64,000 nt of DNA from the NCBI RefSeq assembly GCF_041435215.1, contig NZ_CP108394.1, positions 5,766,001 to 5,830,000 of the forward strand, read 5' to 3'. Under the pieces are notes generated by a model, which searched no databases, had not been told where the DNA came from, and worked only from the letters and a program-made list of their open reading frames with translations. Shown here piece by piece: positions 5,055-18,986 of this stretch. The translations under genes and the position numbers were made by a program. Positions within the stretch are counted from its first letter, which is position 1. Every line of letters begins with the position of its first letter. The DNA comes from Streptomyces sp. NBC_01314 (GTDB lineage: Bacteria > Actinomycetota > Actinomycetes > Streptomycetales > Streptomycetaceae).

Positions 5055-5074
5055 GCGCAGTTCCCCGCGCCCCT
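5055..5074. repeat. Dispersed element, copy A (gcgcrgttccccgcgcccct)
   Basis: A 20-bp sequence gcgcagttccccgcgcccct. Near-identical copies occur at 17022-17041 and 61887-61906 in this window, always just outside genes. I know this motif as a common intergenic sequence in Streptomyces genomes. Here it sits at the edge of the 52-bp tandem array and its last bases run into the first unit. Confidence 0.7.
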
Positions 5075-5278
5075 AAAAGACCACCGGCCCTCGTGGCGTT
5101 GCACGAGCACCGGCCCTCGCGTCCCTAAAGACCACCGGTCCCTCGTGGCGTTGCACGAGCACCGGCCCTCGCGTCCCTAAAGACCACCGGTCCCTCGTGG
5201 CGTTGCACGAGCACCGGCCCTCGCGTCCCTAAAGACCACCGGCCCCTCGCGGCCTTGCACGAGCGCGCCGGCCGTGCG
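5071..5278. repeat. 52-bp tandem repeat array, four units
   Basis: Four head-to-tail copies of a 52-bp unit start at 5071, 5123, 5175 and 5227, each beginning ccctaaagaccaccgg and containing gcacgagcaccggccctcgc. The middle units are almost identical and the outer ones slightly diverged. There are no unique spacers, so this is not a CRISPR array. The reverse strand is open through the array (reading repeats such as GARATPRGTGGL), but this is a by-product of a repeat without stop codons; no start signal or family supports a protein. Confidence 0.9.
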
Positions 5279-5889
5279 GCCCAGAGGTACCGACCCTGCG
5301 GCCTGGTACGGCCACCTGCCCTGCGGCCCGGAACAAGCGCCGGCCCTCGCGGCCTTGCACGAGCACCCGCCCCCGCAGACCGGAACGAGCACCGGCCCCG
5401 CAGCCCAGAGAGATGGCCGGCCCCGTGCCTCAAAAGGATCGCTGGCCCCTGTCGCCTCGAAGGGTGTCGGCCCTACGGGCTTACAGCCGGGAACGCCGGC
5501 CCTGCGGTCCTGAAAGGTGCTGCCTTTTCTGTGACGCTGAAAGTGCGGGAGTCGCCGCCGCAGTTCCTTGCGGCCTGAAGGACCCGCTGCTCCCCCGCGG
5601 CCGTGCGAGACGCGCTGTTGCCGATGTTCGTGAAGGGCGCGTGACGGTCCTTGCTCCCTCAAGCTTCCCCTCGAACTGCCCCCTCGATCGCGAAGTCTTC
5701 CGGGTCTCTGAAAGCTGTGTGCTTGAGTGTCGAAAGGGGTGGGTGATTCGGAAGGGTTCGGTCCGCATACACCGATTGTGCGGGGGGCGCATCCGCCGTA
5801 TGGGCGGAGAGAGGGCTTCCGGGCGATTGCGCACCGCTCTCGGCGGCAATACGTAACGGTATGTCGAGCCGCGGCCTGGAGGCTGGAGC
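5279..5889. other. Decayed repeat tract and upstream region of the kinase gene
   Basis: From 5279 to about 5560 the sequence continues as diverged half-units related to the 52-bp array (variants of ccggccctcgcggccttgcacgag roughly every 25-30 bp), fading with distance. From about 5600 to 5889 the composition is less GC-rich and should hold the promoter of the RsbW-like gene at 5890. I see no supported gene here. Confidence 0.6.
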
Positions 5890-6336
5890 ATGAGCATCTG
5901 GTGGTCACTCCATTTGCGGCGCGAGGCTGCGAGCGTGCCGCTCGCGCGCCGGCTGCTGATCGGCACGATGGAGACGGCGGGCGTCGACCCGGACGTCTCC
6001 TACGACCTCTCCGTCGCCCTCAGCGAGGCCTGTGCCAACGCTGTCGAGCACGGCGGTGGGCTCTCGGCCGGCGCCACCACCGAGGCGTACCGGGTCACGG
6101 CCTACCTCGACGGCGAGAAGTGCCGTATCGAGGTCGCCGACTCGGGCCCCGGCTTCCCGCACCGTCATCCGGTCCGCCCGGCTCACACCGATGCCGAGAG
6201 CGGGCGCGGCCTCTGTCTCATCCGCGAACTCGCCGACCACGTTCACATCGGCAACAAACCGGACCACGGTGGCGCGATCGTCAGCTTCGACAAGATCCTG
6301 AAGTGGCGCGAGGACGCACCGCTGGTGGCGGTATAG
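5890..6336 (+). CDS. RsbW-like ATP-binding protein (anti-sigma factor kinase family)
   Basis: HATPase_c domain protein of the RsbW/SpoIIAB type, a family that phosphorylates anti-anti-sigma factors or binds sigma factors. The 148 residues form one domain: an N-box region in LSVALSEACANAVEHG (residues about 39-54), a G1 box VADSGPGFP, and a G2-like SGRGLCLIRELADHV. The start ATG at 5890 gives MSIWWSLHLRREA and follows a short purine stretch. It is monocistronic in appearance and converges with fxsT at 6425. Streptomyces genomes carry dozens of such small kinases, and the target cannot be told from sequence. Confidence 0.85.
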   Translation: MSIWWSLHLRREAASVPLARRLLIGTMETAGVDPDVSYDLSVALSEACANAVEHGGGLSAGATTEAYRVTAYLDGEKCRIEVADSGPGFPHRHPVRPAHTDAESGRGLCLIRELADHVHIGNKPDHGGAIVSFDKILKWREDAPLVAV

Positions 6337-6424: not shown

Positions 6425-9400
6425 TCAGATCTGGTGCGGCTCCAGATCCCGTCCGACGCGTCGCCAGGAACGGACCAGCGTGGTGACCGGGTGGGCTCTG
6501 CCCAGCAGTTGGGTCAGTCGGGTCACCGCCCTCTCCTGGAGCTGACCGGCCTCCTCACGACGGGTGTCCCGCAGAGTGATCGCCAGATTGCCCATGCCGA
6601 CCAGCACATCGGGGTGGTCCGCGCCGAACCGTCGCCGCAGTCCCTCCACGGCCCGGCGTTCCCAGTGCTCGGCCTGATCGTGCAGCCCGCGGTCCCCGTA
6701 GGCGTTGGCCAGGTTGAGACCGGCGGACAGGACGGACGGGTGGTCGTCCCCGAGGGTGGCGGCCAGACAGTCGCGGGCGTGGCGGCTCAGTTCCTCGGCC
6801 GTCTCCGTGTTGCCGAGGGCCCGGTGGTACATGGCGAGGTTGTTGAAGCAGTACATGGTGAACGGGTGTTCGGCGCCGAACGAGTCCCGGTAGCCGTCCA
6901 GCACCTCCTCGACCTGGCGGACCGCCCGTGCGGGACCGTCCTCGACATCCGTGGCGTAGTAGTCCGCGGCGAGGTTGAGCCCGCACGCCAGGACCTCGGG
7001 GATCGTGCTGCCGTAGCGGTCGTGGTAGCGGGCGTACGTCCTCCAGGTCTCCTCCGTGATCCGCAGCGCCTCGGCGGTACGGCCCGCCTTGCGCAGCGAG
7101 ACGGCGAGGCTCTTGTCGGCCTGGAGGACCTCGGGCACACCCGGGTTGAACACCTGCTCGAATCCCTCGCGCACCTCGCGCAGGAACTCGGCGGAGGTCC
7201 GGTAGTCGCCGAGATCGCGCAGATCGCGCGCGTGGAGCCCCTTGGTGGCGAGGGTGTACGGGTGTGTCGGGCCCAGCAGCGCGGTACGGCGGCGGACCGT
7301 GTCCTCGTCGAGCCGACGGGCGGCCTCGCTGTCACCGGCCAGCCGGAGGTCGATGGCGAGGTTGTTGGCGGCGGAGAGCGTACGCGGATGGTCCTCGCCG
7401 AAGACGTCCGCGAAGCCCTGGTGGATCCGCGTGTCCAGTTCCAGGGCCTCCTTGAAGCGACCCAGCGCCCGGTAGTCGGCGGCGACGCTGCCGGAGGCGA
7501 TGAGGATGCTCGGATGGTCCTCGCCGAACAGCCGGCGCCGGCCGTCCCGTGTGCTCTCGTCCATGGCGACCGCGGCCCGGTAGTCGCCCTGGGCTCGCAG
7601 CACGTTCGCCAGCTGGAAGCGCAGGTTGAGGATCTGCTCGTCGTCCCGGTCCCCGAACGCGTCCGTCCACAGCTCGTGCAGTTGGGTGGCCAGGGTCCGC
7701 GCGGCGTGCAGTTCGCCGCGCCTGGCCAGGTAGCGCACACGGTCCACCAGCAGCTGGCGCGGCTCATCCTTGGTGCACGAACGGATGTTCGATGGCGTGA
7801 GGTGCGGCCAGATCGCCTCCAGCCCGGGCCACTGCGCGGGATCGTCCACATCGCCCTCGCTGGGCCGCGCGGCGGCGAGGATGCCGTGCACTTCGTGCAT
7901 GGTCTCCAGATGCCGCTGGTCGTCCAGGCTGTCGCGCACCGCCGCCTGGACCAGGCGGTGCACCTGGATCGAGTTGTCGGCCGAGTCGACCTTGGCGAGC
8001 GCGAGGCGGTTCAGGGCCTGGGTGACGCGGCCGAGCATGTAGCGCGCCCGCAGGTCCCGGTCGTACGGGAGGAGCGCGTCGATCATCGCGTCGCTGCTGA
8101 TCAGGGACATCGAGATGGGCTCGGCGGCGAAGAAGGCGCACAGTTCGAGGAGCCGGGCGGCGGCCGGTGACTCCTCGCGCAGCCGGGCGATGGAGATGTT
8201 CCAGGTGGCGCCGACGGAGGACGGGTACTCGACTGCGTCCACGGCCTCCTGCACGGACAGCACCCGGGTGGACTGCTCCGTCAGCTGCTCGATGTACTCC
8301 TGCACCGGGGTGGCCGTCGTCTCCAGCCAGGCCGCCGCGACCTCCACGGCGAGCGGCAGGTCGCCCAGCGCGTCGGCGACCCGGTCCGCGTCGTTCTCGC
8401 GCAGTCCCGGCACCCGGCGGCACAGGTGCTCCACGCTCTCCTCGCGGGTGAAGACCTCCATCTCCAGCGACTGGACCGTGGTCGAGGCGGGCCGGGCCCG
8501 GGTGGTGGCCAGGATGTGGCCGTAGACCTGGTCGGGCAGGGACGCGGCGCGCTCCGGGAAGAGGTGCAACGCCTTGTCCAGGTCGGGGACGTTGTCGAAG
8601 ATCAGCAGCCAGCGCTCGCACGGGTCCCCGTGCCGGAGGGCCGCCATGGCCGCCTCCGCAGCCTCCGCGACGTCGTCGCCGACGGGCAGGTCCAGTTCCT
8701 GGGCGAGCGCGGCCACCTTCGGCAGGACCAGATCCGGTTGCTCGGCGTCGATCCACCACACCAGGTCGTAGTCCGCCTTGAACCGGTGCGCGTATTCGCG
8801 GGCCAGCTGCGACTTGCCCACCCCGCCCAGACCGTGCAGCACCTGCGGCAGCCGCTGTCCGGAGCGGCCGCTGACCAGGCGTTCGCGCAGCCGGTCCAGG
8901 ATCGGTGAGCGGCCGGTGAACCACGGGTAGCGGGGCTGGACGTTGGAGATCCGCGTACCGGTGTGGGGAAAGCGCGCGGCGACGCCGGGCGGCGCGGGCA
9001 GGATGTCCGGGTGGTCGAGGCCGGTCAGCAGCGTGGTGTACGCCCGCTCCTCGTCCAGCCGGGTCAGGTCGATGGCGCCCCGGCCGGAGTGCGGCAGGCT
9101 GAGCCGGACGTCGTCGACACGCACCGCCACCGGCCGGTTCCGGGGCTTGTGCCCACCGGCACGTACGGCGTCGTCCCAGGCCCGGCGGGCCCGCCGGGAG
9201 TTGAGGAAGGCGGGGGAGACCACGGCGAGCAGCCGTTCCGAGTCGTCGGCCGCGTCCTCGGCACCGGTCCCGGCCCGGTCGTCGTCCCTCTGCGTCCCGT
9301 CGACGTCCTGCGGCAGCTCCCGGACGTCCATGGGCGCCACTTCGAAGCCCGCGTCCCGCAGCACGGACTCCAGCCAGTCCACCCACATCCGGTCCTCGGA

Positions 9401-10420
9401 GACGTAGTACAGCACCAGCCGGGAGACGGGCAGTGGCCGCCGCCGGGTGTACGCGGCCTTGTACCGGGCCCGCTTCTCCTCGCCGATCAGGGGCAGCCTG
9501 GTGACCCGGCCCTCGGTGACGACGGAGGTGACCCGTTCGCAGGCGCTCAGCATGGAGTTGGCCGTTTTCGGCGGGTCGCCGAAGGCCGCCAGGATCTCCT
9601 CGTAGGCGTAGTACGGCTGGTAGAGGACTTCCATCGACGACCAGTAGTCGGTGAGCCGCTCGCCGTCGAGTCCGGCCGGCAGTCCGGCGAAGAGCTCCCG
9701 GGCCAGGGCGCGCCCCGCGTCGAGCTTGTCCTTCTCACCGAGGTCGATACGCATGGCGAGGGGCAGGACGCGGATGCCCTTGTGGCCGAACCGCTCCCTG
9801 ACGCTCTGCGCGACGGCGGCGGCGCCCTCGATGCTCTGGCCGCTGAGGGTGTAGCAGACGACCAGGGTGCTGGGCATCTGCACGGTGCAGACGTCGGCGA
9901 GATCGCTGAGGCCGGTGCGGCTGTCGATCAGGGTGTAGTCGTAGTGGCGCCGCATGTCCGCGCGCATCGCCTCGAAGAACCGGCCGCCGCCGTAACTGGC
10001 GTAGAAGAGCTCCCAGTCCATGTTGCCGATCATCGGGTAGTCGTCGTGCCGCCGCCCGGCGGACAGGAAGTCCAGGCTGCCGCCCTCGGGGAACGACCAG
10101 TCGAGGGTCAGTGCGTGCGGCCTGACCCGGGCGTACCGGCGGTGCCAGTCCGGGGCGCGGTCGGGCAGGTCGCGCAGCGCCTCCCGGCGGTAGTCGCCGA
10201 TGAGGTTGCTCAGCCCGGGTGTCGCCCGGAGCATCGCGGGGTTCAGGAACGGGTGGAAGAACTTGTGCAGGCCGGGTGCCTCCAGGTCCCAGTCGACGGT
10301 CAGGACGCGGTGCCCGTTGGCGGCCAGGATCCACGCCACGTTCGCGAGCGTCATGGTCCGCCCGGTGCCGCCCTTGTACGAGTAGAACGTGATCACCGTG
10401 CCGTTGCGGTTCTCCGTCAT
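6425..10420 (-). CDS. fxsT: FxSxx-COOH system protein FxsT: ParA-like ATPase, TIR-like, NB-ARC and TPR
   Basis: Large STAND-type protein of the FxSxx-COOH RiPP system. The 1331 residues carry in order: a MinD/ParA-like P-loop domain (about 1-315; deviant Walker A KGGTGRT at 16-22, DWDLEAPG, and IDSRTGLSDL at 165-174); a TIR-like domain (about 333-465; LVLYYVSEDRMWVDWLE); an NB-ARC NTPase (about 500-800; GLGGVGKS at 530-537, LLIFDN at 605-610); and a long C-terminal TPR array (about 940-1310) with repeated DHP...LN.A units. The start ATG at 10420 (MTENRNGTVI) begins the P-loop domain. It is the last gene of the fxsABCT operon, 155 bp after fxsC. The architecture suggests a signal-sensing switch like bacterial NLR proteins, but its activity is unknown. 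Confidence 0.92.
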   Translation of the reverse strand: MTENRNGTVITFYSYKGGTGRTMTLANVAWILAANGHRVLTVDWDLEAPGLHKFFHPFLNPAMLRATPGLSNLIGDYRREALRDLPDRAPDWHRRYARVRPHALTLDWSFPEGGSLDFLSAGRRHDDYPMIGNMDWELFYASYGGGRFFEAMRADMRRHYDYTLIDSRTGLSDLADVCTVQMPSTLVVCYTLSGQSIEGAAAVAQSVRERFGHKGIRVLPLAMRIDLGEKDKLDAGRALARELFAGLPAGLDGERLTDYWSSMEVLYQPYYAYEEILAAFGDPPKTANSMLSACERVTSVVTEGRVTRLPLIGEEKRARYKAAYTRRRPLPVSRLVLYYVSEDRMWVDWLESVLRDAGFEVAPMDVRELPQDVDGTQRDDDRAGTGAEDAADDSERLLAVVSPAFLNSRRARRAWDDAVRAGGHKPRNRPVAVRVDDVRLSLPHSGRGAIDLTRLDEERAYTTLLTGLDHPDILPAPPGVAARFPHTGTRISNVQPRYPWFTGRSPILDRLRERLVSGRSGQRLPQVLHGLGGVGKSQLAREYAHRFKADYDLVWWIDAEQPDLVLPKVAALAQELDLPVGDDVAEAAEAAMAALRHGDPCERWLLIFDNVPDLDKALHLFPERAASLPDQVYGHILATTRARPASTTVQSLEMEVFTREESVEHLCRRVPGLRENDADRVADALGDLPLAVEVAAAWLETTATPVQEYIEQLTEQSTRVLSVQEAVDAVEYPSSVGATWNISIARLREESPAAARLLELCAFFAAEPISMSLISSDAMIDALLPYDRDLRARYMLGRVTQALNRLALAKVDSADNSIQVHRLVQAAVRDSLDDQRHLETMHEVHGILAAARPSEGDVDDPAQWPGLEAIWPHLTPSNIRSCTKDEPRQLLVDRVRYLARRGELHAARTLATQLHELWTDAFGDRDDEQILNLRFQLANVLRAQGDYRAAVAMDESTRDGRRRLFGEDHPSILIASGSVAADYRALGRFKEALELDTRIHQGFADVFGEDHPRTLSAANNLAIDLRLAGDSEAARRLDEDTVRRRTALLGPTHPYTLATKGLHARDLRDLGDYRTSAEFLREVREGFEQVFNPGVPEVLQADKSLAVSLRKAGRTAEALRITEETWRTYARYHDRYGSTIPEVLACGLNLAADYYATDVEDGPARAVRQVEEVLDGYRDSFGAEHPFTMYCFNNLAMYHRALGNTETAEELSRHARDCLAATLGDDHPSVLSAGLNLANAYGDRGLHDQAEHWERRAVEGLRRRFGADHPDVLVGMGNLAITLRDTRREEAGQLQERAVTRLTQLLGRAHPVTTLVRSWRRVGRDLEPHQI

Positions 10421-10575
10421 GCGCCTGCCGTCCTCCGCCCTGTCCGACCCGCCTTGTTCGGCCGGCCCTGTTCGACCTGCCCAGCCCGACCGCCTGCCCA
10501 GTCCGACCCACCCTTGCCGTGCTCCCCGTACTCCCCGTGCTCCCGTACGTCCCGGTGACATCGGGTACTAGCCGC

Positions 10576-11826
10576 CTAGCCGCCCAGGTCCGCCGGACCC
10601 TTCAGCCGCGGGGGTGCGATGGGGGGTCCCGCCGGCGGGTAGGTCCGTGCGTGTGCCTCGTAGGAGGCGACGGCCTGCTTCACGGCCGTCTGCAGCTCGT
10701 TGCCGAAGGCGTCCAGGGTGTGGATGCCGCCGTTGAGGCTGCGGTGACCGCTGCCCTCCGTCATACGCGCGGCCAGGGCCTTCTCGGTGAGCGCCGCCAG
10801 CTTCTTCTCCCGAGCCGTGCCGGTGTCGTCCTCGCAACGGGGGAGCATCACGCTGATCCACGGCCGCTGTTCCTCGCACAGCCGTTCCATCAGCTCCCGG
10901 CCCCTGGCGGAGCCCAGCGCCCACCGGTCGAGCAGCAGCAGTCCGGGAGCCCGAGGCGGACCAGGACCGAGCAGACGGTCGGCGTCCTTCTCGAAGTCCC
11001 CGATGTTCACCTTGTAGTCCATGGTGCGCACCAGGTCGGCCGCGTGTTCGCCGAGCGGCCGGGCCGACGCCGGGTGGTACGGGTTCCAGTCGCGCGGCAG
11101 CCGGCCGTAGCAGTCGGGTTCACGGCCCGGCGGCAGGTCGGAGCGGGTGCACGCCAGGACCGTGATGTCGAACTCCGGGGGATGCCCCGAGGCGCCGAAC
11201 GCGCTGGGCAGCGACTCGTACTCGTCGTACGCCTGCCCCTCGTCCAGCTCGGTCACCTTGGCCACGTGAACGATCTGTTTGGCCAGCCGGTACAGGGCCC
11301 GCTCGTACTCGTCCCGGAGGTAGCGGAGTTTGGTCAGCCCGTAGAACCCCTCCTCCGCGTAGTCCTGGCCGAAGGAGACATGGTTGAACTGCAGATCCCT
11401 TGCCGTGTGCGGCAGTTGGACGGGCTCCACGGGCACCCATAACGCGGGGATGATCGCGTGCTCCCGCGCCGCCCCGCCGCGTGCCCGGTGGCTGATCTGC
11501 CGCTGGGAGAAGGCCCACCACTCCCGCCCGCACTGCTCGCTGATGAAGTAGCGCGGCGAGTACAGCGGCACGAAAACCTTGCAGCGCGCGAGGTTCTCCG
11601 ACAGCTCGTCCGTCCATCGGGTGCCGACCGCCATGCCCTGGTCCAGAAAGCCGGCCCGCGCGCCCCGCGGCAGATCGGTCATCTGCATGATGTGCGCGCA
11701 CAGCCCGTCGTACAGCTTCTTCACCCAGATGTTCGGATCGGTGTCACCGGCGTCATTGCGCGGGGTGTGCGCATAACTGAGGAAGAAATAAGGGCTTCCG
11801 CCGCCCCTGGCCGCATCTCCTCGCAC
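10576..11826 (-). CDS. fxsC: TIR-like protein FxsC
   Basis: Companion of the FxSxx-COOH RiPP system. The 416-residue protein opens with a TIR-like fold (about 10-150): a first strand PYFFLSYAH, then DELSENLARCKVFVPLYSPRYF and CGREWW, where the Glu sits where TIR NADases carry their catalytic Glu. A second alpha/beta region (about 225-370; FDITVLACTRSD, LLLLDRWALGS) follows, then a Pro-rich tail. The start is GTG at 11826; an overlapping ATG at 11830 is out of frame. It lies between fxsB (222 bp upstream) and fxsT, same strand. Whether it cleaves NAD or only binds partners cannot be decided from sequence. Confidence 0.9.
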   Translation of the reverse strand: MRGDAARGGGSPYFFLSYAHTPRNDAGDTDPNIWVKKLYDGLCAHIMQMTDLPRGARAGFLDQGMAVGTRWTDELSENLARCKVFVPLYSPRYFISEQCGREWWAFSQRQISHRARGGAAREHAIIPALWVPVEPVQLPHTARDLQFNHVSFGQDYAEEGFYGLTKLRYLRDEYERALYRLAKQIVHVAKVTELDEGQAYDEYESLPSAFGASGHPPEFDITVLACTRSDLPPGREPDCYGRLPRDWNPYHPASARPLGEHAADLVRTMDYKVNIGDFEKDADRLLGPGPPRAPGLLLLDRWALGSARGRELMERLCEEQRPWISVMLPRCEDDTGTAREKKLAALTEKALAARMTEGSGHRSLNGGIHTLDAFGNELQTAVKQAVASYEAHARTYPPAGPPIAPPRLKGPADLGG

Positions 11827-11978
11827 CCATGCCCCCCGATGCCCGGACTTTCCTCAGTGTAGGAAGGAGGCAGGGGCACGTGGAATATGACGAACGGGCC
11901 CAATGTCCCGGCTCCGGCCGAGGACGGCACGACCCTCGAACACGTAAGCGGAAGCACCAGGGCACTCCACACTCGTCC

Positions 11979-12012
11979 GGCACTCCGGCACTCCGGCACT
12001 CCGGCACTCCGG
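11979..12012. repeat. 8-bp tandem repeat (ggcactcc)4 in the fxsB-fxsC gap
   Basis: Four perfect copies of ggcactcc followed by gg lie in the 222-bp gap between fxsB and fxsC. The rest of the gap shows no gene. The repeat might form part of an attenuating structure or be neutral. Confidence 0.75.
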
Positions 12013-12048
12013 CTTTTCGGTCTCCGGCTCCTCGGCTCTCCAGTCCTC

Positions 12049-14562
12049 CTACGGCCGAACGGTCCGCCGGTGCTCCTCCGCCGCCCGCCGGGCCGTCCGC
12101 AGCGCATCCGCGCTCACCTCGTCCCCCGCCAACCCCGCCCGGAGCCCCGCGACGAACCGCTCCCCGGCCTCCGTAAGCGCCCCCGACCCCGCCAAGGTGC
12201 CCACCGCCTCCGCCGTCTGGTCCCGCCACCGGGAGAACTGCGCCTCGGCCTGGCGCCCGCCGCCGCTCCGCCAGCGGGCGAGCCAGAAGTCGACCACCGC
12301 GATATGGGCGTACGTCCCCTGCAACAGCCCCTCCAGAGGGCGCGGGTCGGGCCGCCAGGGTGCGTAGAACAGCTCGTCGCAGGTCGGGTCGTGCAGGTCG
12401 ACCAGATCCAGGACGGCGCCCAGCTTCACATGCTGGAACTCATGGACGAGGAGCAGCGCGAGTGTCTGAGGTGTGGCGGGGCGGGCGATGGCCACCGCGC
12501 CGAAGGCGTCGCGGGCCGCCGAGCTGATGTCGGCACCCTCGGGGGAGGGCAGGAGCGGAGTGATCACACGGAGCCCGGCGGCGATTCCCGGCGCGTACCG
12601 GGGCAGTTCGCGGCGGATCCAGGCCCAGGCCTCGGTCAGGTCGGCCCGCCACGCCTCGGCCTCCCCCTCGCTGAGCCGGGGGTGCGCCGGATGTCCGTGG
12701 CAGGCCCGCCAGGGGTCGGTGTCCTCCAGGGTCACGGACCAGCCGTCCAGTTCCAACCGCCGGCTCCCCCGCCAGGCGGGGTTCTCGGGGCCGTTCCGGG
12801 CCACGGTGTACGTCCGGTCGTCCGCGTGGACCGTGAAGCCGTCGGCATCCGTGCGTACGACGGCCCACTCGGAGCCTGCTCCCACCGTCAGCGTCCCGAG
12901 TGAGGGCAGTCGCAGCAACCCGCCGTGGACCGGCACGACGACCGCTGCCGGGCGCCCGGCACGCACCGCGGCGGCTGCGGCGATCTCCGCGATCCCGCGC
13001 GTGGCCGTCGCGGCGGACTCCGTGTCGCCCCCGGCCGGTCCCGCCTGCGGCGGACGAGACCCGAGGGCGCTGAGTGCCCAGGACCGTACGTAGGGGTGGG
13101 CCAGGACTCCGTCCACGGCCTCGGGGGCCTCGCCGTCGAGGACGGTCAGCGTGTTCCAGGCGTCTTCGACGCCTTGGAGGTCTTGGACGTCTTGGAGGTC
13201 TTGGACGTCTTGGACGTCTTGAACGTATTTGGCGTCTTCAGTGACTTTGGTGCCTTCGGCCCGCCCGCCCGCCGCGGTGGGCGTCGTCTCGTGCCGCACA
13301 TGGCCCAGCAGCTCGCGGACCAGGGCGAGTTGGTGGCCGGCCAGCAGGTCCACGGTGGTGTCCGTGCCGCGACCGGTGGCCAGCTCGTCCAAGTGGTGCT
13401 CGGCGAGCGCGGGTCGTACGGACTGGTCGGTCATGTGACGGTCCCGGAGATCGGTGATGAAGGACAGCAGATCGGAGCAGTACACGGACGGGTTGAGGAA
13501 TCCGCTGCCGTCGGACCGGTATCGATGGGCGTAGAGGCCACCCCCGCAGGAGCGGACGACCGGACAGGAACGGCACTGCGCTGCCAGCCCGTCGAGGCCC
13601 TGCTGACGGGCCACGATGCCCGGATGCGCGGCGACCTCGTCCAGGGAGTGGGTGAACACGTCCAGGCCGGTGGCGGGGGCTCCGTCGTGCGCGGTCTTCA
13701 GGGAGTCGGCCTGTTCGAAGGTCCCGTCGGTCTCGATCACGGCGAGGTCGGCCGGGGCCAGCCCCAGCGACTCGGTCAGGCTGCTCCCGCCGCGCAGGGT
13801 CCGCAGGACCGAGTCGAAGACACGGACGTCCATGGAGCGTCCGGTCTCGGCCCAGCGGTCGTGGACGGTCAGCAGCCAGCGCGCGTACGCCGTGCCGTTG
13901 ACGTCCTCGGCCGGGCGCGGCGGAGGCTCGTCCCAGGTGGCGTGCGGGAGGAGGAAGTCGACGCGGGGCGGGGCGAGTTCGGCGAGCGCGTCGTGGACGG
14001 CGACCGGGTCGCTGCGCAGGTCGATGGTGCAGAGGATGCCCGCGAAGAGGTGGCGGTAACGGGGCCGGCTGAGCAGGGCGACGGCTCTGAGGACCCGGTC
14101 GTGGCTGCTGCGCCCGTCGGCGTAGCGCCGGTGCAGGTCGTTCGCGGCCCTGTCGCCGTCCAGCGAGACGCCGACCTTGATGTCGAACTCGTCGAACAGG
14201 TCCAGGAACCGTTCGTCGAGCGTGACGGCGTTCGTGTGGATCCGCAGATCCAGCTCGCACACACCGTCGACGGCGGCCGTCAGTTCCATGGCCGCCCTGC
14301 GCAGCCGGGTCCGGCCCGCGAGGAGGGGCTCGCCGCCGTGCAGCACCACGTGGACGGCGGCGAGTTCATGGGTCTTCGCATGTTCGGCGATGCGTTCCGC
14401 CGTGGCGCGCAGGACCTTGTCCGACACCACCCGGGGCCGACCGCGCCAGCTCTGGTCCGCGTGCTCGTACACGTAGCAGTGGTCGCACGCGAGATCGCAG
14501 CGACTGTGCATCTTCAGCACGAACTGGCGTAACGGCAGGAGCGGTCGGCCCGTGACGGTCAT
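12049..14562 (-). CDS. fxsB: FxsB radical SAM/SPASM peptide maturase fused to a HEXXH domain
   Basis: Radical SAM maturase of the FxsB family, which installs three-residue cyclophane links on FxsA-type precursors. The 837-residue protein has CDLACDHCY (CxxxCxxC, Cys 22, 26, 29) for the SAM-binding Fe-S cluster, GGEP (VLHGGEPLL), a partial (beta/alpha)6 barrel, and a SPASM Cys cluster (CRSCPVVRSCGGG and a later SVYC). A linker at about residues 444-468 consists of VQD/LQD repeats. The C-terminal half (about 520-830) contains HEFQH at 707-711, the HEXXH signature of the fused domain named in FxsB-type proteins, of uncertain role. The start ATG at 14562 lies 27 bp after the fxsA stop, so precursor and maturase are co-transcribed. 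Confidence 0.95.
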   Translation of the reverse strand: MTVTGRPLLPLRQFVLKMHSRCDLACDHCYVYEHADQSWRGRPRVVSDKVLRATAERIAEHAKTHELAAVHVVLHGGEPLLAGRTRLRRAAMELTAAVDGVCELDLRIHTNAVTLDERFLDLFDEFDIKVGVSLDGDRAANDLHRRYADGRSSHDRVLRAVALLSRPRYRHLFAGILCTIDLRSDPVAVHDALAELAPPRVDFLLPHATWDEPPPRPAEDVNGTAYARWLLTVHDRWAETGRSMDVRVFDSVLRTLRGGSSLTESLGLAPADLAVIETDGTFEQADSLKTAHDGAPATGLDVFTHSLDEVAAHPGIVARQQGLDGLAAQCRSCPVVRSCGGGLYAHRYRSDGSGFLNPSVYCSDLLSFITDLRDRHMTDQSVRPALAEHHLDELATGRGTDTTVDLLAGHQLALVRELLGHVRHETTPTAAGGRAEGTKVTEDAKYVQDVQDVQDLQDVQDLQGVEDAWNTLTVLDGEAPEAVDGVLAHPYVRSWALSALGSRPPQAGPAGGDTESAATATRGIAEIAAAAAVRAGRPAAVVVPVHGGLLRLPSLGTLTVGAGSEWAVVRTDADGFTVHADDRTYTVARNGPENPAWRGSRRLELDGWSVTLEDTDPWRACHGHPAHPRLSEGEAEAWRADLTEAWAWIRRELPRYAPGIAAGLRVITPLLPSPEGADISSAARDAFGAVAIARPATPQTLALLLVHEFQHVKLGAVLDLVDLHDPTCDELFYAPWRPDPRPLEGLLQGTYAHIAVVDFWLARWRSGGGRQAEAQFSRWRDQTAEAVGTLAGSGALTEAGERFVAGLRAGLAGDEVSADALRTARRAAEEHRRTVRP

Positions 14563-14589
14563 AGGGATCTCGGCAGGTACGGACGGGTG

Positions 14590-14787
14590 TCAGACGGAGG
14601 ACTGGAAGGCCGCGACCGCGACCCTTCCCGGACCCGTCCGTTCGACGCCGTTCGACACGGCTCGGGTCAGAGCGGGCGACAGCGCGCCGCCGCCCCGCGC
14701 CGCCAACTGCACCAAGGACACCCGCTCCGGACCGACGGCGGCCGTAGTCCCTGACTCTTCGGCCGTGGGGTCGAGGGATGCGTTCAT
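14590..14787 (-). CDS. fxsA: FxsA precursor peptide of the FxSxx-COOH RiPP family
   Basis: The 65-residue precursor starts MNASLDPTAEE and ends VAVAAFQSSV, so its last five residues match F-x-S-x-x-COOH exactly (F-Q-S-S-V). In this family the maturase joins the Phe ring to the residue two positions on, here probably F61-Q62-S63; that is inference from known triceptides. The leader is Ala/Gly/Ser/Val-rich with a conserved-looking ERVSLVQLAARGGGALSPAL segment and no Cys. The start ATG at 14787 has a GAGG five bases upstream. It is the first gene of the fxsABCT operon. No obvious protease or exporter gene accompanies it. Confidence 0.93.
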   Translation of the reverse strand: MNASLDPTAEESGTTAAVGPERVSLVQLAARGGGALSPALTRAVSNGVERTGPGRVAVAAFQSSV

Positions 14788-15167: not shown

Positions 15168-16127
15168 ATGACGGGAAACCACAAAAGCAAAACGATCACG
15201 CGGCGCCGCGCTCTCGCGGTGACCGGAGGGGCGGTCGCCGCCGGTGGGATCGCGGTCGCCGGGTACCAGTCGGCGTTCGCGGACGAGACGACGAGCGGCA
15301 CCGAGGCGACGGCCACGACTTCCACGACGGCCACGACGAGTACCGGCGACGCGTGCATGACGCTGATGTCCAACGTCACCGAAGGCCCGTACTACCTGGA
15401 CGGAGCCCTGGTCCGGAAGGACATCACCGAAGGCAAGAGCGGTGTTCCGCTGACGCTGCGCCTCACGGTCGTGGACGCCACCGACGGCTGCACCCCCGTC
15501 CCCGGCGCGGCCGTGGAGATCTGGCACTGCGATGCCTGGGGCTACTACTCCGGCTACACCACCGCGAATCCCGGCGGTTCTGCGCCCGCCGAGAGCGAGG
15601 ACGGCTCGACCGCCGACGACGCCACCTATCTCCGTGGCTACCAGATCGCGAACGCGAACGGGGTCGTCAAGTTCGAGACCGTCTTCCCCGGTTGGTACAC
15701 CCCCCGCACCTGCCACATCCATGTGAAGGTGCACACCGGCGGCGAGAAGGAGGACGGCACGTACGAGGGCGGCAAGGTCAACCACACCGGCCAGTTCTTC
15801 TTCGACGACACCGTCGCTCAAGAGGTCTTCACCCTGGAGCCCTACTCCCGGCACAGTGGCAGCTACACCACCCTCGACAACGACATGGTCTACGACGGCG
15901 GCGGCGCTTCCAGCGGCCTGCTCACCCTCAAGGCCGTGAAGAAGGCCAACCCGGCCCGCGGTTACAAGGGTTTCCTCACCCTCGGCGTCGACCCCGACGC
16001 CGAGAACACGGGCGCCGGCGGCGGTGGCGGCGAAGGCGGTACGCCCCCGTCGGGCGAGCCGCCGACGGGCGAGCCCCCGACGGACGCTCCGACCGACAGC
16101 GCCACCAGCTCCGAGTCGGCCTCGTAG
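15168..16127 (+). CDS. Tat-exported intradiol ring-cleavage dioxygenase
   Basis: Secreted member of the intradiol dioxygenase family (protocatechuate 3,4-/catechol 1,2-dioxygenase fold), non-heme Fe(III) enzymes that open catechol rings. The 319-residue protein has a twin-arginine signal (KTITRRRALAVTGG, then a hydrophobic stretch to about residue 40), a Thr/Ala linker, the TEGPYYLDG motif, and the metal ligand set in YLRGYQ and GWYTPRTCHIHVKVH (Tyr, Tyr, His, His). The tail is Gly/Pro/Thr/Ser-rich. The start ATG at 15168 has no clear Shine-Dalgarno, which fits the nearby TAnnnT motif and leaderless expression. Secreted relatives act on plant- or lignin-derived catechols; the substrate here is unknown. 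CitG-like gene follows 9 bp downstream. Confidence 0.9.
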   Translation: MTGNHKSKTITRRRALAVTGGAVAAGGIAVAGYQSAFADETTSGTEATATTSTTATTSTGDACMTLMSNVTEGPYYLDGALVRKDITEGKSGVPLTLRLTVVDATDGCTPVPGAAVEIWHCDAWGYYSGYTTANPGGSAPAESEDGSTADDATYLRGYQIANANGVVKFETVFPGWYTPRTCHIHVKVHTGGEKEDGTYEGGKVNHTGQFFFDDTVAQEVFTLEPYSRHSGSYTTLDNDMVYDGGGASSGLLTLKAVKKANPARGYKGFLTLGVDPDAENTGAGGGGGEGGTPPSGEPPTGEPPTDAPTDSATSSESAS

Positions 16128-16136
16128 GCTACGCCC

Positions 16137-16973
16137 ATGAGCAGCCGAGAGGACGAGACGCTGGCGCAGGCCGCGGTGGCCGCGCTCACCCGGCAGTTGG
16201 AAATGATGCCCAAGCCCGGCCTGCCCGACCCGCGCGACCTCGGCGCCCGGATCACCCGGCAGGACCACCGGGCCCTGCGCTGGTCGGCGAAGGCACTGGT
16301 GCCCGGCCTCGCGGCGATGGCTGCCTGCGCCCGCCGCAACGGCGCGGCGACCCCCGAACTCCGCGCCGAACTCGGCGCGATCGGGCGCTGCACCGAACAC
16401 TCCATGCGACTCGCCGGAGGCGGACACCGCGGTGCCACCTGGGTGCTGGGCCTTCTGGTCGCCGCGGCGGCCATGGAACCCGGCGCCCGGGGGCGCGAAC
16501 TCGCCGCCACCGCCAAGAAGATCGCCGCGCATCCCGACCGCCGGGCACCCAGGCGCCCTTCCCGGGGGTCGTCGGTCTCCGCCAAGTACGGGGCGGCCGG
16601 CGCCCGGGGCGAGGCCCGCGCGGGCTTTCCCCATGTACGGCGGGCGTTGGACGTCCTGGCCAAGGCGCGCACCGCCGGCACGCCCGAGCCGGACGCCCGC
16701 CTCGACGCGCTGCTCACGGTCATGTCGACGCTCCAGGACACCGAGTTGCTCTACACCGCCGGTCCCCACGGGCTGCGGCATGTGCAGGCGGGGGCGCGGG
16801 GCGTGATCGACGCGGGGGGTGTCATGAGTGAGGCAGGGCGTGAGGCTCTGACTGCCTTCGACATGGATCTGCAGGGACGGGGGTGGAGTCCTCGGGGGAG
16901 TGGGTCGTTGCTCGCGGGCGCCTTGTTCGTGGACTCCTTGCCCGTCACCTCGCGGGTACGGGCCGCCTCATAG
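16137..16973 (+). CDS. CitG/MdcB-like triphosphoribosyl-dephospho-CoA synthase
   Basis: Resembles triphosphoribosyl-dephospho-CoA synthase, which makes the prosthetic-group precursor for citrate lyase or malonate decarboxylase acyl carrier proteins. Motifs seen in the 278 residues: MPKPGLPDPRD near residue 25 (KPGLVD-like), GGGHRGATWVLGLL (the HKG/HRG region), GEARAGFPHV, and a C-terminal SPRGSGSLLAGALFV matching the P(S)PGGSADLLA end of MdcB. It lies 9 bp after the dioxygenase gene, same strand. No citrate lyase or malonate decarboxylase genes are in this window, so it is either an orphan supplying a distant operon or has a drifted role. Some substitutions (GVNTHKG to GGGHRG) make the exact reaction uncertain. 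Confidence 0.75.
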   Translation: MSSREDETLAQAAVAALTRQLEMMPKPGLPDPRDLGARITRQDHRALRWSAKALVPGLAAMAACARRNGAATPELRAELGAIGRCTEHSMRLAGGGHRGATWVLGLLVAAAAMEPGARGRELAATAKKIAAHPDRRAPRRPSRGSSVSAKYGAAGARGEARAGFPHVRRALDVLAKARTAGTPEPDARLDALLTVMSTLQDTELLYTAGPHGLRHVQAGARGVIDAGGVMSEAGREALTAFDMDLQGRGWSPRGSGSLLAGALFVDSLPVTSRVRAAS

Positions 16974-17156: not shown

Positions 17157-18635
17157 CTACTCCCGGGCACCCTTCAACGCAGCCATCCACGCCTCGACCT
17201 CGTCGGAGCGGCGAGGCAGTCCGGCGCTCAGGTTCCGGTTGCCGTCGTCCGTCACCAGGATGTCGTCCTCGATCCGGACGCCGATGCCCCGGTACTCCTC
17301 GGGGACGGTGAGGTCGTCGGCCTGGAAGTAGAGGCCGGGCTCGACCGTCAGCACCATCCCCGGCTCCAACGTCCCGTCGACGTACGACTCGACGCGTGCG
17401 GCGGCGCAGTCGTGGACATCCATGCCGAGCATGTGGCCCGTGCCGTGCAGGGTCCAGCGGCGCTGGAGGCCCAGCTCCAGGACCCGCTCCACCGGGCCCT
17501 CGACGAGCCCCCACTCGACCAGCCGTTCGGCCAGTACGTGCTGCGCGGCGTCGTGGAAGTCGCGGTACTTGCCGCCGGGCCGCACGGCGCCGATACCGGC
17601 CTCCTGGGCGTCGTACACGGCGTCGTAGATCTTCTTCTGGATCTCGCTGAACGCGCCGTTGACCGGCAGGGTGCGGGTGACGTCGGCCGTGTAGTACGTG
17701 TGCGTCTCGACGCCCGCGTCCAGCAGGAGGAGGTCGCCGGAGCGGACCGGCCCGTCGTTGCGGACCCAGTGCAGCGTGGTGGCGTGCGGGCCGGCGGCGC
17801 AGATGGAGCCGTAGCCGACATCGTTGCCCTCGACCCGGGCGCGCAGGAAGAACGTTCCCTCGATGTAGCGCTCCGAGGTGGCCTCGGCCTTGTCCAGCAC
17901 CCGGACGACGTCCTCGAAGCCGCGCACGGTCGAGTCGACCGCCTTCTGCAGCTCGCCGATCTCGAACCCGTCCTTGACCAGCCGGGCCTCGGAGAGGAAG
18001 ACCCGCAGCTCGTCGTCGCGCTCGGCGGTGACCTTGTCGGTGAGCGCCGCCTCGACGCCGGCGTCGTACCCGCGTACGACCCGCACCGGGCCGGTGGCCT
18101 CGCGGAGCCTGTCGGCGAGTTCGCGCACGTCGCCGGCGGGGATGCCGTACAGCTTCGCCGACTCGGTCAGCGAGTGGCGCCGCCCGACCCACAGCTCGCC
18201 CTGGCCGGAGAGCCAGAACTCGCCGTTCTCCCGGTCGGAGCGCGGCAGGAGGTAGATCGTCGCCTCGTGGCCGTCGGCCACCGGCTCCAGGACCAGGACG
18301 CCGTCCTCCGTCTGGTTGCCGGTGAGGTACGCGTACTCGACCGACGCCCGGAAGGGGTACTCGGTGTCGTTCGAGCGGGTCTTCAGGTTGCCCGAGGGGA
18401 TCACCAGGCGGTCGCCCGGGAAGCGCGCCGAGAGCGCGGCGCGGCGGGCGGCGGTCTCGGCGGCCTGCGCGATCGGCTCCAGGCCGTGCAGCTCGGTGTC
18501 GGCCCAACCCGACTTCATGCTCTCGGCCAGCTCGTCGGACACGCCCGGGTACAGGCCGTTCTTGCGCTGCTTGATCGGCTCCTCGGCTTCGGTCGCCTCG
18601 GTCTCCGGGGTCGCCGGCTCGAGCTCGTCCGCCAC
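17157..18635 (-). CDS. pepP: Xaa-Pro aminopeptidase (aminopeptidase P family, M24)
   Basis: Cytosolic metallopeptidase removing N-terminal residues before proline. An N-terminal AMP_N domain (FPGDRLVIPSGNLKTRSNDTEY) precedes the pita-bread catalytic domain with the five metal ligands: Asp in LLLLDAGVETHTYYTADVTRT (two Asp), His in LHGTGHMLGMDVHD, Glu in LTVEPGLYF and Glu in GVRIEDDILV. Start choice: AGGAGG abuts an ATG at 18641 with zero spacing, whereas the in-frame GTG at 18635 lies six bases after it, so GTG is preferred; the difference is two residues. Length about 492 is normal. A TAnnnT motif (TACGAT, about 18674 on the minus strand) may be its -10. Confidence 0.93.
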   Translation of the reverse strand: MADELEPATPETEATEAEEPIKQRKNGLYPGVSDELAESMKSGWADTELHGLEPIAQAAETAARRAALSARFPGDRLVIPSGNLKTRSNDTEYPFRASVEYAYLTGNQTEDGVLVLEPVADGHEATIYLLPRSDRENGEFWLSGQGELWVGRRHSLTESAKLYGIPAGDVRELADRLREATGPVRVVRGYDAGVEAALTDKVTAERDDELRVFLSEARLVKDGFEIGELQKAVDSTVRGFEDVVRVLDKAEATSERYIEGTFFLRARVEGNDVGYGSICAAGPHATTLHWVRNDGPVRSGDLLLLDAGVETHTYYTADVTRTLPVNGAFSEIQKKIYDAVYDAQEAGIGAVRPGGKYRDFHDAAQHVLAERLVEWGLVEGPVERVLELGLQRRWTLHGTGHMLGMDVHDCAAARVESYVDGTLEPGMVLTVEPGLYFQADDLTVPEEYRGIGVRIEDDILVTDDGNRNLSAGLPRRSDEVEAWMAALKGARE

Positions 18636-18986
18636 GGTCATCCTCCTAGGTACGGCACTGGACCGCGTCCATCGTACGGTCGTACCGAAGGGGACACGGG
18701 GCCCCCGAAGCACCTCTCACGACGGGTCACCGAGCCCTCACGGGAAGCAGCCGAGACGACCCGGCCCCCCAGCCCTCGGCACGCGAGGAAACCACCACGC
18801 ACGCCTCGGCGTGCACAGGGCTGCCGACGCCGGGCGGGCCGACCCACGGTGGCCACGACACCCGGCTCAACGACGCACAGTTCAACGACGCACGGCACGG
18901 CGACGTACGGCAGGCGACGCAGGGCGGACGGTGTGCGGCGCTCGCGGCGCCGGGCTCGGGCGGTCCGCGGCGCTCGGCCACCGGCC
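18636..18986. other. Intergenic region upstream of pepP
   Basis: About 345 bp between the phosphatase stop and pepP. It contains the pepP ribosome-binding site, a likely promoter, and short inverted repeats such as gtacggtcgtac. I see no gene. Confidence 0.5.

Follow-up and report, generated by a model that had tools for sequence, protein, structure and literature searches.

The fxs operon of Streptomyces sp. NBC_01314 raises the question of whether a ring-forming peptide serves an internal switch or is made for export. The operon lies within a 64,000-nucleotide stretch of the genome, here called the window, in which fxsA, fxsB, fxsC and fxsT are complete and adjacent in the order A-B-C-T, all on the minus strand (positions of operon features below refer to that strand). 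All four products exceed the curated NCBIfam cut-offs, which bears out the original prediction of a complete fxsABCT operon on one strand. Its account of a 65-residue peptide ending in FQSSV and encoded 27 bp before the maturase gene also agrees with the sequence, the 27 bp being the gap from the fxsA stop codon to fxsB.

The available text of Kaur et al. 2020 (PMC7159879) describes actinobacterial systems that process FxSxx peptides, stand alone and include an AP-ATPase, and it suggests a conflict role for them. Their common parts are given there as a small FxSxx precursor, a radical SAM/SPASM enzyme, an HExxH component and an AP-ATPase that also bears TPRs and a MinD/ParA-like domain predicted to be inactive; in the window, by comparison, the radical SAM enzyme and the HExxH domain form a single fused protein. 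Section 24, within the same available text, treats the HExxH component as a (metallo)peptidase, leaves FxsC unnamed and does not contrast the two TIR domains. The window operon is one more example of a system type already in print, and the residue-level detail is new.

An RsbW-like ATPase gene (5890-6336) adjoins the operon, and a dioxygenase gene (15168-16127) and a CitG-like gene (16137-16973) are further neighbours. A domain scan of the near neighbours found no exporter. The earlier statement that neither exporter nor protease is present holds for these neighbours, apart from an aminopeptidase-P-type M24 gene (17157-18713) that is retained within the flank some 2.4 kb past fxsA. In other families, cyclophane RiPPs act as bioactive peptides after export, a precedent for reading the product as an exported antibiotic or quorum peptide encoded with a self-protection module. 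Since the scan of near neighbours revealed no exporter and the constant partner is an NB-ARC protein, that reading is most improbable. Upstream of the flanking ATPase gene, window positions 5066-5405 hold a 52-base tandem repeat of up to 6.5 copies.

The precursor peptide and its fused maturase

FxsA (14590..14787) is an FxSxx-COOH precursor that matches TIGR04268 at 41.3 bits (cut-off 28) and has VAVAAFQSSV as its C-terminal end. FQSSV (14593..14607) is the predicted cyclophane core, and immediately N-terminal to the ring Phe is a Val-Ala-Ala stretch (14608..14616) that covaries with the HExxH domain. In FxSxx family chemistry, a ring is expected to join the F and S of F-Q-S, and family membership makes it very likely that FxsA would be matured by FxsB.

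FxsB, or FxsBH (12049..14562), is an 837-residue fusion of a radical SAM/SPASM maturase with an HExxH hydroxylase domain. Its earlier identification as a radical SAM/SPASM maturase is correct for that half but overlooked the C-terminal aKG-HExxH-type peptide beta-hydroxylase domain. The radical SAM/SPASM domain (residues 11-375; 13438..14532) scores 608.8 bits against TIGR04269 (cut-off 370) and carries the CxxxCxxC motif as CDLACDHC. The cysteines of this motif are invariant in an eight-row FxsB alignment, as are Cys 330, 333, 339 and 362, which are the putative SPASM ligands. The aKG-HExxH domain (residues 643-807; 12142..12636) scores 189.6 bits against TIGR04267 (cut-off 40) and includes an intact HEFQH metal-binding motif (12430..12444). 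From the domain match and the intact motif, this part is predicted to be a peptide hydroxylase; against NF040587, the family with a lost HExxH, the window's FxsB scores 178.3, under the cut-off of 225. Among solved relatives, 22nu/22ob spans FxsB residues 466-811 (304.9 bits) and ChlB 9gm3 matches the radical SAM half (272.2 bits). The same domain pair as in FxsB is found in fused radical SAM/aKG-HExxH enzymes (ChlBH; solved relatives 9gm3, 8s5f and 22nu). ChlBH was reportedly described by Morishita et al. in 2024 (as cited in PMC12636437), and the chemistry of a fused enzyme is said to be known from it. The linker between the two enzyme parts differs in length among relatives and in the window contains a V-Q-D-like run encoded by a 9-base tandem repeat (13161-13238).

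Five FxsB genes over the cut-off are present in the 11.3-Mb genome. At L016, close to C1:2.04 Mb, a pair of fxsB genes is spaced about 7 kb apart, and one FxsA candidate there runs six residues past FESAL, ending in DYEAPK, which would violate the C-terminal FxSxx rule. Of 99 long FxsB-fusion loci, 53 carry an AAC(3)-family acetyltransferase gene, irrespective of HExxH status; the window operon lacks it. When shorter loci are counted too, 55 have the gene, and in 40 of these it separates fxsB from fxsC. The family assignment comes from one gene scanned (L055:8195-8914; PF02522, 225 bits), and the enzyme perhaps tailors the peptide.

The peptide sequence was compared with HExxH status by pairing fused FxsB with FxsA across the loci gathered and the window. 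After three duplicate FxsB rows were removed, 169 fused FxsB were kept, 106 with an intact HExxH, and FxsA was located for 162. Seven loci had no FxsA by pattern, and in two (L187 and L201) the second candidate was used, the nearest being a spurious frame. Ala-Ala at positions -2 and -1 of the ring Phe accompanies 81 of 104 fused enzymes whose HExxH is intact, but none of the 58 that have lost the motif. Ala at -2 gives 97/104 against 3/58, and a C-terminal Ile or Val of FxsA 89/104 against 7/58. The tree of the radical SAM half provides four independent pairs only, in which Ala-Ala follows the same direction in up to four and never the opposite (median p 0.125; 4/4 pairs in 107 of 200 pairings). 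Ala at -2 follows it in up to three independent pairs (median p 0.25), and the C-terminal Ile/Val in three with one opposite. With four pairs, the independent-loss test for HExxH and Ala-Ala is not significant, and the covariation is suggestive.

Several loci delimit the rule. One at the window's own site (L102) has lost HExxH (RGFQY) and its FxsA ends in EGSFQSCL; relative to the window, its HExxH domain is 53% identical and its radical SAM domain 77%. The strict Ala-Ala rule is weaker in genera added later. In another locus type, HExxH genes are separate and intact in the nine seen, and the three FxsA found by pattern in loci of this type (L080, L089 and L091) are all without Ala-Ala; the rule is therefore limited to fused enzymes. 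No statement of the Ala-Ala covariation was found in the accessible text of the open-access literature searched. As far as the available text of PMC12636437 goes, two HExxH enzymes, PosC and PflC, carry out both Gln hydroxylation and backbone cleavage at a C-terminal motif; for PosC, the motif Ala is decisive, and Gly leads to partial cleavage. A figure legend of the same paper has ChlH hydroxylating His and Asp on a peptide whose ring is already formed, whereas the covarying site of the window is the Ala-Ala before Phe. One could picture FxsB as a protease-free release machine whose HExxH part cuts at Ala to yield a short, keto-capped ring peptide, a second messenger sensed by FxsT, which in turn assembles and fires FxsC, with HExxH-less lineages having lost the Ala-Ala site and using the ring uncut; such a scheme is quite unlikely.

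The TIR domains of FxsC and FxsT

FxsC (10576..11826) scores 240.5 against NF040588 (cut-off 130) and 230.4 bits against TIGR04276 (cut-off 55). From these matches and models it consists of a TIR domain (residues 12-190; 11257..11793) and a second, flavodoxin-like alpha/beta domain at the C-terminus (residues 219-409; 10600..11172). The TIR fold matches NAD-cleaving TIRs, and Glu102 (11521..11523), within C-G-x-E-W, is the counterpart of the TIR catalytic Glu. Glu occupies this column in 68 of 68 rows of alignment A2, which holds 68 of 101 FxsC stretches (incomplete stretches were left out, as was the second of the two in L017), and it is found in 112 of 114 FxsC stretches. The two without the pattern are one of a tandem pair in the window's genome, which has Gln, and one FxsC fused to a vWA protein (L076). 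The tandem pair (L017:6725-8978, near C1:2.68 Mb), one with the catalytic Glu and the other with Gln, is possibly an active and an inactive partner.

FxsT (6425..10420) is a ParA-like/TIR/NB-ARC/TPR protein matching NF040586 at 983.9 bits (cut-off 300) along with NF047398, TIR_2, NB-ARC and TPR. Its open frame covers 6425-10561, and the ATG at 10420 (MTENRNGTVITFYSYKGGTGRT) is the more likely start because the ParA-like match begins just downstream of it. The NB-ARC domain (8252..8899; PF00931, 32.8 bits, cut-off 23.5), a STAND ATPase, has an intact P-loop, with the Lys of GGVGK in 103 of 103 FxsT rows. The TPR superstructure (6428..7861; PF13424, 179.4 bits; PF13374, 158.2 bits) is the presumed sensor. 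A TIR domain in FxsT had been pointed out earlier and is indeed present (9029..9406), but its lack of the catalytic Glu had been overlooked: no row of the 103-row alignment has Glu in that column (one is a gap), with a Glu one residue earlier in 26.

A Glu kept in the TIR of FxsC and absent from that of FxsT suggests an effector and an adaptor, respectively. No statement of this split between a dead and a live TIR was found in the accessible text of the open-access literature searched. FxsC is likely to be the effector, although its TIR may be a scaffold even with the Glu. An output through the ParA-like domain of FxsT, on division or chromosome partition, would instead make both TIRs mere assembly domains. 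The motif KGGTGRTM has Arg in 103 of 103 FxsT rows, so this domain is constrained. However, the Arg stands in place of the P-loop Lys, ParA-like domains of this kind are predicted inactive in the available text of Kaur et al. (PMC7159879), and the catalytic Glu of FxsC would be kept for no reason; an output of this type is highly improbable. Among PADLOC defence models, FxsT matches the candidate family PDC-M28B (69.1 and 29.1 bits, E 9e-20), best over residues 52-101 at the ParA-like start, FxsB matches viperin models weakly (29.5 and 16.1 bits), and FxsA and FxsC match nothing.

Distribution, partners and genomic site

Across 61 genomes of the genus, the FxsT family is found in at least 60 (at least 58 over the cut-off), HExxH in 49, FxsB in 41, FxsA in 36 at E 0.01 (21 over the cut-off; small peptides are easily missed) and FxsC in 23 (protein query, E 1e-10). 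In a phylum-wide sample of 296 genomes, the FxsC C-terminal family occurs in three, the window's own included, all of the window's genus. FxsC has a relative in four of 72,556 plasmid records, and none was confirmed in the viral contigs searched. Apart from a few MAGs, the sources of the best 80 FxsB-fusion loci are mycelial genera, among them Streptomyces, Kitasatospora, Streptacidiphilus and Planobispora.

Linkage was measured within 8 kb in the genus genomes. Leaving two second-piece rows out of 34 gives 32 FxsC matches, 24 of which have both FxsB and FxsT nearby; two of these lie in tandem within a single operon, and G014 has a different gene order. The other eight comprise six fused into vWA proteins, one on a 4.3-kb contig ending before FxsT and one without FxsB. 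From the side of FxsB, 25 of 62 matches have FxsC within reach and 48 have FxsT. FxsT linkage was drawn from 99 of the matches listed, including all 83 at 721 bits or more. Of these 83 strong matches, 44 are near FxsB, 31 more near an HExxH gene only, one near FxsC only and seven near none. For HExxH, all strong rows were used, but weak ones only where they fell at FxsB genes, with other weak stand-alone rows omitted, which may give an undercount. FxsT is thus the most constant partner of the tailoring enzymes, with FxsB or an HExxH gene nearby in 75 of 83. The anticipated co-occurrence of fxsAB with FxsC and FxsT holds for FxsC, which is not routinely apart, but only partly for the FxsT family, which is often found without fxsB.

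The six orphan FxsC (L020, L072-L076) are the C-terminal parts of long vWA-type proteins whose genes directly follow a MoxR-type AAA gene, and five, all but L076, retain the catalytic Glu. In three of three vWA-FxsC loci scanned with Pfam there is a VMAP-M2 neighbour, and in two the AAA gene was named; in three loci scanned with NCBIfam, a SAV_2336 domain starts the fusion protein. Near C1:7.90 Mb of the window's genome, L020:1491-7904 is a locus of the VMAP ternary type, and its vWA protein has an FxsC module at the C-terminal end. A vWA-TPR-FxsC fusion gene on a 134,670-base contig (L072) is probably on a Streptomyces plasmid. Where FxsB and FxsT occur without FxsC, AAA and vWA matches are present in eight of nine fetched loci (L080-L083, L088-L091), and in L085, of the same type, the AAA and vWA queries found nothing. 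These queries matched 0 of the 80 best FxsB-fusion loci, some of them short, and a weak vWA match in L067 is the sole one among other FxsC loci. Unlike the MoxR-vWA-VMAP ternary conflict systems, the window operon has no match to these components, and AAA, vWA and VMAP-M2 queries gave no phmmer match (E 1e-8) in the frames of the window. Effector domains associated with vWA are mentioned in the available text of Kaur et al. (PMC7159879). It looks as if FxsT and the tailoring enzyme form a constant pair and FxsC is one of two exchangeable outputs, because vWA-FxsC fusions exist and AAA and vWA replace FxsC elsewhere.

Such partnerships bear on whether the peptide might be an intracellular toxin that FxsT and FxsC control or detoxify. 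The available text of Kaur et al. 2020 (PMC7159879) leaves "peptide toxin or signal" open, the co-occurrence fits a toxin equally well, and the AAC(3)-family gene carried by 53 of the 99 long loci with an FxsB fusion encodes a possible tailoring or masking enzyme. That gene is missing from the window operon, however, and vWA-FxsC proteins occur without FxsA or FxsB within reach; a toxin is very unlikely.

The operon is an accessory unit whose site is retained by one clade, because relatives show empty sites and the flanks are common to one clade. Its flank genes are shared by 12 of 101 fxs loci, all Streptomyces records (e.g. S. europaeiscabiei, S. stelliscabiei and S. canus), and are absent from the other 89 save for one 34% match. 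The CitG-like gene is found in 14 other genomes of the genus, in 11 of which the ATPase gene is on the same contig within 5 kb. By distances measured by hand, 0.15-3.5 kb separates the two genes in these 11, against 9.8 kb in the window, so the operon would not fit between them; the remaining three genomes have them far apart or on different contigs.

Within the site, the parts have changed unevenly. Compared with three loci at the same site (L095, L154 and L094), flank genes are 85-94% identical where mostly aligned, with short partial matches down to 66%. The radical SAM and HExxH domains of FxsB are 85-86% and 83-84% identical, and FxsA is 66-82% identical. For FxsT, the values are 80-82% for the ParA part, 76-78% for NB-ARC, 70-71% for TPR and 56-59% for TIR; for FxsC, they are 70-78% for TIR and 58-64% for the C-terminal domain, with the two L095 values taken from partial matches. 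Every computed pair has dN/dS below 1, which gives no indication of positive selection; what the comparison shows is fast change. The fastest parts, the FxsT TIR and the FxsC C-terminal domain, could form a partner interface.

The retention of one site over 12 loci of a Streptomyces clade also fits a developmental or stress switch of mycelial actinomycetes, in which the peptide would report internal state and FxsT and FxsC would restructure hyphal compartments or kill them, phage playing no part. In support of this role, FxsC was found in three of the 296 phylum genomes, all in the window's genus, and the best FxsB-fusion loci come from mycelial genera. The patchiness of FxsC (23/61 genomes), the empty sites in relatives and the five FxsB genes of the window's genome argue against it, and a developmental or stress switch of this kind is unlikely.

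A possible peptide-linked switch and its role

With these alternatives weighed, an intracellular, peptide-linked STAND/TIR switch is the type of mechanism tentatively favored. It is favored because of family membership, the linkage of FxsB, FxsT and FxsC, the Glu contrast, the TIR fold match and the covariation of HExxH with Ala-Ala, and also because the locus is accessory, patchy and fast-changing. In such a switch, the radical SAM half of FxsB would close the three-residue Phe-Ser ring in F-Q-S at the FxsA C-terminus, as family membership implies. The HExxH domain would oxidize Val-Ala-Ala before the ring, by hydroxylation or an oxidative cut at Ala, at a position that the covariation supports. 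FxsT would then read the modified peptide, most likely through its TPR part, and the NB-ARC ATPase switch would be set; FxsT as the reader is about an even guess. Having lost the catalytic Glu, the FxsT TIR may act as a docking platform for FxsC. As the effector with its Glu kept, FxsC would most likely cleave NAD+ or make a nucleotide signal, and a hyphal compartment would be arrested or killed. Candidate triggers are phage or, alternatively, internal stress or development. We infer the peptide as ligand, the NADase activity and the trigger.

The NLR plan combines a TIR, an NB-ARC switch and a repeat sensor. These parts, including a TIR with the catalytic Glu and a matching TIR fold, are shared by the window operon with plant TIR-NLRs and with bacterial SPARTA/TIR NADases. 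Unlike in those systems, the catalytic TIR and the NB-ARC lie on separate proteins, and the NB-ARC protein's own TIR is without the Glu. The original prediction preferred an NLR-like switch inside the cell to an exported antibiotic; it is partly supported as the better reading, and a conflict role had been published before (Kaur et al. 2020). A role of this operon in defence is possible, if doubtful.

Two residue-level results give the family a way forward. The Ala-Ala covariation leads to a directly testable prediction for fused radical SAM/HExxH enzymes, and the dead TIR of FxsT beside the live TIR of FxsC indicates the first Glu to mutate. If the favored switch is right, a genetically encoded ring peptide would drive an immune-receptor-like switch, thereby tying RiPP chemistry to NLR-type signalling.
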